Part shown: positions 23,671-27,280 of the stretch, one piece after another
Layout of the letters: the number at the start of each line of letters is the position of its first letter
Position numbering within the stretch: the stretch's first letter is position 1
NCBI RefSeq assembly: GCF_001281525.1
Contig: NZ_LGCI01000005.1
Coordinates: 628,554-692,553, forward strand
Direction: 5' to 3'
From: Lysinibacillus macroides
GTDB lineage: Bacteria > Bacillota > Bacilli > Bacillales_A > Planococcaceae
Length of the DNA: 64,000 bases
The notes under the pieces: model-generated
What the model was told of the DNA's origin: nothing
The model's database searches: none
The model's input: the letters and a program-made list of their open reading frames with translations, nothing else
Translations under genes and position numbers: made by a program

Positions 23671-24235
23671 AATAGAAGCTTTATTATTTGTTGTTGGCGA
23701 TGATGGCTTAACAATTAAACAATTATCACAGCTTTTAGGTGAACAAGAAGATGTTATTACGCAGACATTGATGACCTTAAGAAAGGCATATGAGGAAGAT
23801 TTGACAAGAGGCATTACGGTCAAAGAAATAGCAGGTGTGTATCAGCTTATTACAAAAACGGAGTTTGCTGATACGATTCAACGCTTAGTAGAAAATCCAA
23901 CTACGCAATCATTATCTCAAGCCTCTCTCGAAGTATTGGCAATTGTTGCCTATAAACAGCCTATTACCCGTGTAGCGGTTGAGGATTTGCGTGGTGTCAA
24001 ATGTGAACGCCCCATTCAAACATTAGTGTCACGAGGTCTTATTAAAGAAGTTGGGCGTTCAGAGGGGACTGGACGTGCTATTCTGTATGGTACAACAAAA
24101 GAGTTTTTACATTATTTTGGTTTAAATAGCTTAGAGGAAATGCCGCCTTTACCTGAGGAGGAATTTGCTGATACAGAGCAAGAAACAGATTTATTTATGA
24201 CGAAATTCCAAGAAACATTTAGCGATGCAAAATAA
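23642..24235 (+). CDS. scpB: Segregation and condensation protein B
   Basis: A 197-residue partner of ScpA with two winged-helix domains. Family phrases seen are QSKIEALLFVVGDDGLT, YKQPITRVAVEDLRGV and TGRAILYGTTKEFLHYFGL. RBS GAAGGAGG lies within the end of scpA, 9 bases before ATG 23642. Length is normal. Confidence 0.95.
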   Translation: MTKALMLQSKIEALLFVVGDDGLTIKQLSQLLGEQEDVITQTLMTLRKAYEEDLTRGITVKEIAGVYQLITKTEFADTIQRLVENPTTQSLSQASLEVLAIVAYKQPITRVAVEDLRGVKCERPIQTLVSRGLIKEVGRSEGTGRAILYGTTKEFLHYFGLNSLEEMPPLPEEEFADTEQETDLFMTKFQETFSDAK

Positions 24236-24277
24236 TTGGCATCATCTATCTAATCTTAGTGAATAAGGAGTGGCTCG

Positions 24278-25348
24278 TTGCTTCGGTTCGTTCGTTTAAT
24301 GATCATTATGACCCTTATGTTAATGGTAATATTGCCGCAAACAAGCTTGGCAAGAGGAGGAAGCGGCTATGCTGTGTTAGATGGAGATACAGGGCGTGTC
24401 TTGCTAGCATCCAATAGTGAGGCACGACTACCCATTGCAAGCTTAACAAAAATTTGGACAGCACTTGTCGCCATTGAAAATAGTAATCTACAAGATGAGG
24501 TTGTGATCTCGCCCAAGGCTGCCATGGCTGAAGGAAGCTCTATCTATTTACAGGCTGGTGAAACAGTCACAGTGGAAACACTGTTATATGGTTTAATGTT
24601 GCGATCAGGTAATGATGCTGCAACAGCTTTAGCAGAGCATGTAGGAGGCTCTGTGGAGGGTTTTGTAAAGTTAATGAATGAAAGAGCGGTTATTGCTGGG
24701 CTAACGAATACTGTTTTTATGAATCCTTCTGGTTTGCATCATGATGAGCATTTATCCTCAGCAAGAGATACCGCGGAGATGCTAAGAATTGCTCTGCAAA
24801 ATAAAACCTTTGAAAAAATCGCTTCAACCGTCCTTTATCGAGCAGATACGGTCAACGGTATGCTTTGGGAAAATAAACATCGACTATTAAGAGAAGGCTC
24901 AGGCTCGGTTGCAGAAATGGATGATGAAACGGAGCAGCCTGTTAGTTCTTTAAAATCCGCTACGGGCATGGCCTTTGCGGGCAAAACAGGCTTTACAAAG
25001 GTTGCGGGACGCACGCTTGCAACAGCCTTTCAAAAGGACGGACAAATATGTATTGTCGTCACCTTAAACGAATCAGATGATTGGAATGTTCATCGAGGTC
25101 TAGCCAATAAGGTATGGCAAGATTATAGTCTTGAAACAGTTGTGAAAAAAGGCAAATATAATGTTAATAAAAAAGTAGCAATTCGTTTAGAGCAACCAAT
25201 TCGTTTACAATTAAATAAAGAGGAGCAAGAGCAGGTACGGCAAGTATTACATGTGTCAAGAAAGCGCAAAGAAGCCGTGTTGTCTATTTTCTTGGGAGAA
25301 GAGCGCATTTATGCAGTGCCAGTAAAAGTTGAATCAGCGGATCGTTAA
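24278..25348 (+). CDS. D-alanyl-D-alanine carboxypeptidase, S11 family (DacB/DacF-like)
   Basis: A 356-residue low-molecular-weight penicillin-binding protein. A signal peptide (about 1-25, ending SLA-R) is followed by the serine transpeptidase fold with S55LTK58, SGN at 110-112 and KTG in FAGKTGFTK. The C-terminal beta-domain is present. It removes terminal D-Ala from peptidoglycan, outside the membrane. TTG 24278 has AAGGAG 7 bases upstream. The position after scpB matches dacB of B. subtilis (spore cortex), but DacF of the spoIIA region is missing here, so which role it plays is open. Confidence 0.88.
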   Translation: MLRFVRLMIIMTLMLMVILPQTSLARGGSGYAVLDGDTGRVLLASNSEARLPIASLTKIWTALVAIENSNLQDEVVISPKAAMAEGSSIYLQAGETVTVETLLYGLMLRSGNDAATALAEHVGGSVEGFVKLMNERAVIAGLTNTVFMNPSGLHHDEHLSSARDTAEMLRIALQNKTFEKIASTVLYRADTVNGMLWENKHRLLREGSGSVAEMDDETEQPVSSLKSATGMAFAGKTGFTKVAGRTLATAFQKDGQICIVVTLNESDDWNVHRGLANKVWQDYSLETVVKKGKYNVNKKVAIRLEQPIRLQLNKEEQEQVRQVLHVSRKRKEAVLSIFLGEERIYAVPVKVESADR

Positions 25349-25369
25349 AAAACGGTTCGCTGATTTTTT
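25331..25369 (+). terminator. Rho-independent terminator overlapping the dacB-like stop
   Basis: AATCAGCGGATCGTT pairs with AACGGTTCGCTGATT (GU allowed), followed by a T-run. The stop codon is in the loop. Confidence 0.85.
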
Positions 25370-25415
25370 ATATGCTTTAAAATTGCTTGAGTACTGGATT
25401 TCCTTGTTTATTTAA

Positions 25416-25443
25416 TTAACGACTAAACGTGAAGTGGTATAAT
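25416..25443 (+). promoter_or_regulatory. Candidate sigma-A promoter of the vWA-flagellin gene
   Basis: TATAAT at 25438-25443 with TTAACG 16 bases upstream (25416-25421). No sigma-D (TAAA...GCCGATAT) pattern, the usual one for flagellin, is seen. Confidence 0.4.
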
Positions 25444-25471
25444 TTAACTAAACACAATTAGGAGATAAGAA

Positions 25472-26899
25472 ACGATAATACGACACAATCAAGGTCTATT
25501 TACTCGAAATCGCTACAATTATACCCAATCACAATTGAATAACACATTAAATAAATTGTCTTCAGGCTATAAAATAAAACAAGCTGCGGATGATGCGGCA
25601 GGTTTAGGCATTAGCGAAAAAATGCGTGGGCAAATAAGAGGGTTACATAGGGCCGGAGAAAATATTCAAAATGGCTTGTCATTATTACAAACAGTTGATG
25701 GTGGATTAGGGACGATTACAGACCCTAATTTATTAAGGATGCGTGAATTAGCCATTCAGGCAGCAAATGACACATTGACAAATGATGATCGCTTCAAAAT
25801 ACAAATGGAAATCGATGCAATTAAAGAAGGCATTGATAATATTGTAGATGGTACGGAATTTAATACAATAAAAGTATTACGGCCTCCTGCTGAGCTACCT
25901 ACTGCAACACCTAATGGGGTAGTAGATATTGTATTAGTTTTCGATAATACAGGGAGTATGTCTTCCAAACAACAAAATTTTGCAGCTAATATCCAAAATT
26001 TAATTTCTTCTATTCAAGGGAAAGGCGTATCAGATATTCGAATAGGCATTTTAAGTTACTATGATTCGAATTATGAAAAAAGTGATTTTGCAGGTGATAA
26101 ATGGACGAGTGATATCAATGAGGTCATAGCTGAAATCAATAGAATTTCTGCAACCAATGATGGTGGTACTGAAAATAATATGACGGCTATTGAAGAGGTT
26201 GTGAACTTTTATGATTTTAGAGAGTATCCCAATAGCAATACAAATTATAAACATCTGATTATCATTACAGATGAATTTGGAGATGATGATTATAAAACGC
26301 AAGATGTTGTCCAGCTATTAAAGGATCAACATATTATGTTGCATGGTGTAATGGATAGTGCGCCTGGGCTGGATCACGTTATTCAGGAAACAGGTGGTCA
26401 AAAAGTTCAATTAAATGGCAATCCAAACTGGGGTGCAGATTTATCAAAAGATATCGGTGAGGCGATTGGTTCATCTGCTAATATACCTCATGAAGAAGTC
26501 GACATGCATCCGCTTATTTTACAAGTAGGTGCGAATGTGGGACAACATATAAAACTCAATTTATATGATTGCCGTACCACAACAATAGGTATTGATGAAG
26601 TATCTGTTATGACACGTGAAGATGCTGAACAAGCATTAGCAATCATTGATAAAGCAATACAGCAAATTTCCAGCTATCGTAGTGAATATGGTGCGTTTTA
26701 TAATCGACTTAAATATGCCTACAATAATGTTCAAAATGCTGAGGAAAATTTAATACATGCAGAATCTTTATTACGAGATACTGATATGGCGCAGGAAATG
26801 TCTAAACTAAAAAAAGCTCAACTAATACTCCAATCCTCCCAAGCAATGATGGCACAAATTAATCAAATGAGCCAAGGAATATTGACATTATTAAAATAA
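25472..26899 (+). CDS. Flagellin with an inserted von Willebrand factor A domain; start codon ACG in place of ATG
   Basis: The 475-residue reading frame has flagellin at both ends. The N-terminal D0/D1 part (about 1-135) contains LNKLSSGYKIKQAADDAAGL, SEKMRGQIRGL and GTEFN. The C-terminal D1/D0 part (about 343-475) contains DAEQALAIIDKAI and SQAMMAQINQMSQGILTLLK. Between them, in place of the variable D2/D3 region, lies a vWA domain (about 149-331) with a full MIDAS: DNTGS (D158), T233 in GGTEN and D267 in ITDEFG. A Cys in LYDCRTT is unusual for flagellin. AGGAG (25460-25464) is followed after seven bases by ACG, where family members have ATG (then IIRHNQ). Starts at ATA 25475 or TTG 25535 are alternatives. 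It is far from any flagellar cluster in view. It may be a surface filament with ligand or metal binding, or a silent gene. Confidence 0.85.
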   Translation, partial: TIIRHNQGLFTRNRYNYTQSQLNNTLNKLSSGYKIKQAADDAAGLGISEKMRGQIRGLHRAGENIQNGLSLLQTVDGGLGTITDPNLLRMRELAIQAANDTLTNDDRFKIQMEIDAIKEGIDNIVDGTEFNTIKVLRPPAELPTATPNGVVDIVLVFDNTGSMSSKQQNFAANIQNLISSIQGKGVSDIRIGILSYYDSNYEKSDFAGDKWTSDINEVIAEINRISATNDGGTENNMTAIEEVVNFYDFREYPNSNTNYKHLIIITDEFGDDDYKTQDVVQLLKDQHIMLHGVMDSAPGLDHVIQETGGQKVQLNGNPNWGADLSKDIGEAIGSSANIPHEEVDMHPLILQVGANVGQHIKLNLYDCRTTTIGIDEVSVMTREDAEQALAIIDKAIQQISSYRSEYGAFYNRLKYAYNNVQNAEENLIHAESLLRDTDMAQEMSKLKKAQLILQSSQAMMAQINQMSQGILTLLK

Positions 26900-27280
26900 T
26901 AGTGTGTAAGTAAAAAAATCTTTTGTTCTGCAGGTATGGTCGGTTCCTTGTTAACAAATTAGCAGAAGCCAATTGACAATAACTATAAGAAAAGCTGCCA
27001 AATGGTGGCTTTTTTCATGTCTACAATAGCAAATATGAAAAACGATTCACTTGTTAGAAAAAGGTGCATACTAACGATAATGAGCAACGGATGTCATTAA
27101 TTCATGAATAAAAAATTATTGCGAATACTCTAAAAACAAATGTGAAATTTGTTTTTCTTTAATAATACCTAAAAGTATGACATAATTTTCACAGATTAGC
27201 GGGAACCATAACCCTATTCATTTGAACGAGATCAAATATTGATATAATGATTAATGTGAAAGAAAACTAGAGGTGAAAAA
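26900..27280. other. 381-bp intergenic region with a terminator
   Basis: It holds one terminator hairpin (26993-27015) serving the vWA-flagellin gene. The remaining A/T-rich sequence shows no coding frame, and I see no known element before the rluB RBS (AGAGGTG). Confidence 0.5.
26993..27015 (+). terminator. Rho-independent terminator after the vWA-flagellin gene
   Basis: AGCTGCC pairs with GGTGGCT (two GU pairs) around AAAT, followed by TTTTT. Confidence 0.65.

Follow-up and report, generated by a model that had tools for sequence, protein, structure and literature searches.

A flagellin gene with a von Willebrand A-like insert in Lysinibacillus macroides, and related genes in other bacteria

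In this work, we ask what is encoded by a single open frame of Lysinibacillus macroides, the ends of which read as a flagellin and the middle as a von Willebrand A (vWA) domain, whether the same combination recurs in other genomes, and whether this copy is likely to be translated and displayed. The frame lies in a stretch of 64,000 nucleotides (contig NZ_LGCI01000005.1, positions 628,554 to 692,553), hereafter the window; loci and genomes compared with it carry L and G numbers, and coordinates are collected in Table 1. The reading that we favour, with a probability of roughly 0.6 for the explanation as a whole, is that the gene belongs to a set of accessory flagellins displaying an adhesion-type vWA domain similar to that of integrin beta chains, the window copy itself being nearly silent.

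Architecture and predicted fold of the protein

An earlier note, made from the sequence by eye, had called both ends of the protein flagellin and its middle a vWA domain, and Pfam bears this out. With the frame read from 25478, Flagellin_N is found at residues 8-134, VWA at 150-291 and Flagellin_C at 387-472, all above the curated cut-offs; both flagellin models exceed their gathering scores, at the positions that had been assigned to them, and PF00092 (VWA) scores 47.5 bits against a cut-off of 23.8 (3e-12). The frame runs to a stop codon at 26897-26899, with no stop inside, and the insert sits between the two D1 halves, the place taken by the variable region in other flagellins.

Structure prediction gives a similar picture. 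AlphaFold2, supplied with the window protein and five relatives (6 sequences), produced a model of moderate confidence (mean pLDDT 67.6, pTM 0.44), in which pLDDT falls under 50 at both helix ends. Its long helices span residues 2-123 and 382-474, and an alternating beta/alpha domain occupies 149-335. Foldseek matched this model to solved flagellins and to solved vWA domains, the latter including collagen VI alpha3 (TMt 0.72 for its N2 domain), integrin alpha and beta, and TFIIH subunits; by sequence, the solved structures closest to the whole protein are flagellins, among the best 60 of 85 matches. According to the model, a vWA-like fold is thus present between the flagellin helices of the window protein, so that the domain search and the monomer prediction, both proposed in the earlier note, left its description of the architecture standing. 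The possibility that the middle region is an ordinary D2/D3 was also considered, and is ruled out by the VWA models being its sole Pfam matches over cut-off.

The same note had regarded a cysteine in the C-terminal D1 region as unusual. The residue, Cys367, is indeed there, and a Cys occupies the same position in 2 of 13 relatives (L037 and L040; L125 and L140 were scored by eye).

Might the product be exported by the flagellar apparatus and yet be no filament subunit, but serve at a junction, as FlgL does, or be secreted? The FlgL model TIGR02550 matches at 106 bits, below its cut-off of 127.2, while several flagellin models of NCBIfam score higher, up to 206.6 bits, each listed flagellin model remaining below its own full-length cut-off. 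The D0/D1 part moreover groups with flagellins, in a tree that has no FlgL row, and we consider a non-filament role highly improbable.

Table 1. Features of the vWA-flagellin locus, in window coordinates
Feature	Positions	Strand	Basis
Terminator-like hairpin following the dacB-like gene; borders the extra segment on the left	25331..25366	+	1 found vs 0.9 expected in shuffles
Segment that the sister genome lacks, lying between the dacB-like terminator and rluB; includes promoter region, gene and DNA downstream of it	25375..27009	+	
Sigma-A-like promoter candidate, TTAACG-16-TATAAT, TG before the second hexamer	25416..25443	+	10/12 matches, best in region
Shine-Dalgarno-like AGGAG, 7 bases 5' of 25472	25460..25464	+	Sequence
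ACG codon where relatives have ATG/GTG/TTG; lost or very weak start	25472..25474	+	
Whole open frame, stop included	25472..26899	+	Sequence
Flagellin D0/D1, N-terminal part	25472..25879	+	Pfam Flagellin_N 3e-30
Insert with vWA domain, 210 residues	25880..26509	+	Pfam VWA at 25925-26350; AlphaFold2 beta/alpha elements
MIDAS loop 1: Asp158, Thr160, Ser162 (DNTGS)	25943..25957	+	D-x-[ST]-x-[ST] in 14/14 inserts
Glu234, proposed integrin-beta-like MIDAS ligand	26171..26173	+	Conservation and integrin beta-3 alignment
MIDAS loop 3: Asp267	26270..26272	+	Asp in 13/14 inserts, Asn in L125
Cys367, before the C-terminal D1 helix	26570..26572	+	
Flagellin D1/D0, C-terminal part	26636..26893	+	Pfam Flagellin_C 2.4e-22

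Relatives, and the histories of scaffold and insert

The 261 genomes of the same family were surveyed at E 1e-36, with up to 6 candidates per genome, and then at E 1e-20, with up to 10. The further flagellins with a vWA insert for which the earlier note had wished to look do exist: 12 were found in 10 other genomes of the family, and a thirteenth (L125, in G668) in another family. Together with the window's own, 11 of the 261 genomes contain at least 13 vWA flagellins (the window gene, L037, L038, L061, L039, L040, L140, L008, L041, L042, L043, L044 and L045), a figure which, given the thresholds and the limits on candidates, is a lower bound. The hosts include Sporosarcina sp. E16_8 and Ureibacillus xyleni, with two copies each, Planomicrobium okeanokoites, Planococcus koreensis, and Psychrobacillus psychrotolerans, whose copy carries a stop. 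All three Pfam domains were recognized in each of the nine relatives scanned. A degenerate copy, L120, is kept outside the counts of 14, and three accessory flagellins without a recognized vWA domain (L053, L057, L058) were also left out of the analysis. At E 1e-20 a twelfth genome, G075, contributed L136, which has a vWA domain but is no flagellin, and the G797 row (L126) is, on reading, a flagellin without vWA.

The family is a scattered one. Among 32 genomes of the window's genus, none but its own passed the E 1e-20 survey threshold. In 398 genomes sampled evenly from the class (E 1e-40), vWA rows came from the window, G278, G035 and the degenerate copy of G388; in 398 genomes of the phylum, vWA flagellin rows came from the window and G668, which was alone among the 82 genomes of its own class at E 1e-50. 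A one-off chimera, as an explanation of the window gene, is ruled out by the 12 related genes of the family. A close copy on a plasmid or phage was also sought and rejected, none of 72,556 plasmid and 50,697 phage records having one place that covers 80% of the protein. When viral contigs were scanned with the single protein, one weak match turned up, limited to the vWA part, and phage MTATph1 of Moorella (L141:3083-7174) encodes a 1363-residue hypothetical protein with a type C-like vWA domain (for the types, see below), next to a virion structural gene.

Scaffold and insert do not tell the same history. In a tree of 41 flagellin D0/D1 parts (L050 left out), the 14 vWA rows do not form one clade: four changes are needed, and a tree forcing them into a joint clade is 68.9 log units worse (p-AU 0.007). 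Descent of the vWA flagellins as one whole-gene lineage is rejected at this value, to be read with caution given the long branches of L044, L045 and L059. The insert tree resolves three well separated types: type A (L040, L008, L039, L061, L042, L043), type B (L038, L041, L044, L045, L140) and type C (the window, L037, L125). The non-flagellin L136 groups with types A and C, a join made unsure by its long branch. Types A and B are mixed twice within sister groups of the D0/D1 tree, L038/L041 standing beside L039/L061, and L140 beside L040/L008. Because of this conflict between the two trees, cassettes seem to have moved between scaffolds; the simplest reading of the sequences is that vWA cassettes, or the ends around them, would have been exchanged among flagellins in the course of evolution.

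The window gene and L037 differ by 0.30/0.18/0.50 at codon positions 1/2/3 overall, and by 0.24/0.15/0.53 in the N-terminal, 0.34/0.21/0.56 in the vWA and 0.30/0.16/0.40 in the C-terminal part, a pattern that fits purifying selection.

The search also brought up flagellins with other inserts. In six of them, accessory flagellins (L009, L046-L050), the insert is about 190 residues long and includes a cluster of cysteines, CCTC; their N-terminal D0/D1 is 67-69% like that of the window gene in L009 and L046-L049, and 65% in L050; the one that was scanned has no Pfam match beyond the flagellin ends. By eye, the insert of L051 resembles TolB-type beta-propeller repeats with WSPDG motifs, and L012, a flagellin of 635 residues in the insert of which DGGY-type segments recur, may also contain a beta-propeller. 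The window's own genome encodes a 412-residue flagellin (L082:8601-9839) with alanine/serine-rich repeats in the middle, for which Pfam finds the flagellin ends only.

Locus, promoter and start codon

The gene is flanked by a dacB-like gene and rluB (names assigned by eye). Of the other 31 genomes of the genus, 29 entered the comparison of this site. The best DNA match among the 29, L084 in G008, reaches 92% over 24123-25374; it aligns with 24123-25374 and 27010-27280 of the window, the two stretches being adjacent, and the window has about 1.6 kb extra. Since no other genome of the genus yielded the vWA form, gain of the segment in L. macroides is the simpler reading, its loss from G008 being the alternative. 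The gap between dacB and rluB varies across the genus (window 25375-27009 and L085-L112), being short in L084 and occupied by different open frames elsewhere: by eye, a membrane-protein-like frame in several genomes and an IS200-like transposase in L086.

The gene had been described as lying away from flagellar genes, and so it does. No other flagellar-looking frame was seen by eye among the 63 frames of at least 90 residues in the window, where five flagellar BLAST queries matched the vWA flagellin only, and the other Flagellin_N matches of the genome lie either about 575 kb off on this contig or on a different one.

The neighbourhoods of all 14 genes (the window, L063-L073, L081 and L142) were inspected by eye and by BLAST against the window frames, with 8 proteins submitted to Pfam; L069, L071 and L081 stop at contig ends. 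Flagellar or flagellin-related genes occur in 5 of the 14, and none were recognized in the other 9: FliD and FliS in both L065 and L070, FliD in L071, a flagellin in L072, and FlaG together with NeuB in L066. NeuB is a sugar gene, often tied to flagellin glycosylation.

The proposal of a sigma-A-like rather than sigma-D-like promoter holds in its negative half. The best sigma-D-like match upstream of the window gene scores 8/12, a value reached by 95% of shuffles, and upstream of 12 relatives (L140 left out) sigma-D-like boxes score 7-9, none above chance. As a control, 6 of 9 flagellin upstream regions of the genus score 10-11/12 (L016 and L017 look like near copies); among the flagellins of the window's genome the short L001 and L005 reach 8 and L002 10, and L030 reaches 9, the low scores of L001, L005 and L030 perhaps deriving from misread starts. 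The sigma-A-like site, on the other hand, is a candidate only: 13% of shuffles of the upstream region score equally, and the region contains 10 promoter-like sites against 10.5 in shuffles.

It is the start codon that sets the window copy apart. At their assigned start, 13 of 13 relatives have ATG, GTG or TTG, and in five of them it shares an alignment column with the window ACG (GTG in L037 and L041, ATG in L038 and L039, TTG in L061). The window gene lacks a usual translation start before D0: an in-frame TAA at 25466-25468 closes the frame just upstream of the ACG, and the earliest ATG, GTG or TTG is a TTG at 25535, 21 codons inside D0. This TTG was considered as the true start and rejected, since it would remove 21 residues of D0 and no Shine-Dalgarno-like sequence was seen before it. 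The alignment of the ACG with the starts of the relatives suggests that the window copy may be silent or barely translated, and the clean remainder of the frame that the lesion, if it is one, is recent. The ACG weakens the claim of a working gene, and leaves its descent from flagellins untouched.

A sequencing or assembly error, in an otherwise normal gene, could account for the ACG, as just one codon is concerned and one genome of the species was compared. The codon lies, however, within a 1.5-Mb contig of a 15-contig assembly, the remaining frame is clean, and comparable single lesions are found in three relatives, which makes an error quite improbable. These lesions are single internal stops, TAG at codon 17 in L039, TAA at codon 32 in L008 and TAA at codon 252 in L041; the degenerate L120 has two stops within the match and a broken D0. 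Among the at least about 150 flagellin matches listed, a hand count in which some rows are a gene in two pieces, a stop occurs only in the L008 row. Lesions are not confined to vWA forms, since L053, L057 and L058 also carry a stop codon in the flagellin N-terminal match; in this informal comparison, accessory flagellins, those with vWA among them, seem to carry lesions more often than flagellins in general.

Low-level expression from the ACG, or from neighbouring ATA codons, would instead yield a minor flagellin scattered in the filament. The Shine-Dalgarno-like sequence stands at a distance of 7 bases, the sigma-A-like candidate lies upstream, the remaining codons are open and show a purifying pattern, and ATA is a listed start in translation table 11. 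Bacterial ACG starts are, however, rare and weak, all 13 relatives have one of the three usual codons, and the internal stops in three of them speak for repeated loss, so that we hold such expression to be unlikely. From the sequence, the copy of L. macroides is probably silent, or translated at trace level.

Metal site, display and known systems

The earlier note had described an intact metal site (MIDAS) made of DxTGS, Thr and Asp residues. The first loop and the Asp are present; the conserved residue of the middle loop, in contrast, is a Glu, as in integrin beta chains. At this position 11 of the 14 inserts have Glu, and three of type B (L044, L045, L140) Tyr. Thr233, which adjoins Glu234 in the window insert, corresponds to Ile in the other type C inserts, L037 and L125. 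Most of the integrin beta-3 I-like domain can be aligned with a profile built from the six type A inserts (4e-7), placing GD-x-PE on RDAPE, TDA-x-VH on TDAKTH, and the loop-2 Glu column on Glu220. In integrin beta-3, the residues given at the MIDAS ion are D119, S121, S123 and E220, and those at the SyMBS ion D158, D217, P219 and E220 (PMC3792891); E220 touches the MIDAS ion. Only 4 of the 6 type A inserts show the integrin-beta pattern D-x-P-E, and the window insert is of type C. Taken alone, the window insert has integrin alpha-1 as its best match among solved structures, a weak one (5e-4), in which Thr233 misses the column of what we take to be the alpha-type MIDAS Thr; it matches PF00092 and gives no PF00362 match at E 0.001, while L040 and L061 show weak PF00362 matches, below cut-off. 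On the strength of the conservation of the loop-2 Glu, its alignment with integrin beta-3 and the offset of Thr233 from the alpha-type Thr, the middle-loop ligand is probably Glu234 rather than Thr. Metal binding may not be common to all members, in view of the Ile for Thr in L037 and L125, the Asn in L125 and the Tyr for Glu in three type B inserts.

In a different view, the insert serves above all as an antigenic surface or shield that varies, directed against phages or predators, and selection does not maintain metal-dependent binding. A proposed ligand is replaced in 4 of the 14 inserts, three vWA types seem to have been exchanged, several unrelated inserts sit on similar flagellin ends (L009, L046-L049, L051, L012), and a type C-like vWA domain is found in a phage protein beside a virion structural gene. 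Retention of loop 1 in 14 of 14 inserts and of the loop-3 Asp in 13 of 14 nevertheless exceeds the needs of a mere shield, and we regard this view as a serious but minority one.

According to the reading that we prefer, an accessory flagellin displaying an integrin-beta-like vWA domain, the window gene would have been acquired, probably horizontally, with an outer vWA domain bearing the metal site. Across the family, the flagellar apparatus would export the flagellin ends, which would then become part of filaments; the vWA domain would thereby face outward and, by way of a divalent cation, bind an acidic group of a surface or of a partner. Display along filaments, as the earlier note had envisaged it, is plausible for the family, given the flagellar or flagellin-related genes in 5 of the 14 neighbourhoods; for the window gene it is weakened by the ACG start, a lesion that would leave an otherwise open and well kept gene silent or translated at trace level.

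A broader proposal, which we advance as possible but tentative, is that a family of flagella in Bacillota acts as cation-dependent adhesive fibres, each such subunit presenting an integrin-beta-like I domain. Recombination would swap the ligand-binding cassette between flagellin scaffolds, single lesions would silence the genes time and again, and transfer would restore them. Adhesion by flagella is known, and the subunit frequently has no adhesive domain of its own. If the preferred reading is true, a defined, testable adhesive module would be repeated along a rotating fibre, as a natural domain display on flagella, and one metal-dependent adhesion fold would be common to animal receptors and bacterial filaments; if the flagella are adhesive fibres, lineages would switch the stickiness of their flagella on and off. 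With its single lesions and its cassette swaps, the family also lends itself to the study of how a surface function is gained and lost.

Domain inserts in flagellins are already known. In the parts consulted, unrelated variable-region forms of flagellin have been reported (Hu and Reeves 2020), and 61 domains have been counted in flagellin variable regions, the peptidase type having been characterized (Eckhard et al. 2017, PMC5595980). For the vWA kind, of which the earlier note knew no described counterpart, the literature searched agrees: no description was found in titles and abstract openings of work on flagellin with vWA or von Willebrand, or on flagellin inserts; the best-matching papers on both have vWA passages about separate proteins; the review PMC8306008 is without Willebrand or vWA terms; and the main text of Eckhard et al. 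has no occurrence of Willebrand or VWA. The supplementary domain table of the latter stands outside this comparison, and a prior listing of vWA flagellins there is possible.

A close parallel is flagellinolysin, a flagellin with a metallopeptidase insert (NF033876), in which flagellin ends likewise enclose a foreign functional domain in the hypervariable region; its scattered occurrence is put down to the transfer both of entire genes and of the insert itself (Eckhard et al. 2017, PMC5595980). The window insert differs in being a vWA domain: NF033876 scores 59 bits against a cut-off of 205, the best stretch being the flagellin C-terminal part, and Pfam finds no peptidase family in the window protein up to E 1. 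With an ordinary flagellin of Bacillota (Kurthia, PDB 6t17) the protein shares D0/D1 sequence and predicted fold; ordinary short flagellins (L001, L016, L031), in contrast, have 5-7 residues between the halves, against 210 in the window gene. The I-like (vWA) domain of integrin beta (PF00362) similarly features a DxSxS-type loop, an Asp in the third MIDAS loop and, if Glu234 is rightly assigned, a Glu in the second, whereas the window protein is a bacterial flagellin without any other integrin domain and matches PF00092, not PF00362. Finally, SpaC and Mfa5, bacterial pilus adhesins that are both among the PDB matches of one profile (A1), also carry a vWA domain on a surface fibre. They are pilus or fimbria subunits, present at the tip or as minor components, whereas the vWA domain of the window gene lies in a flagellin.
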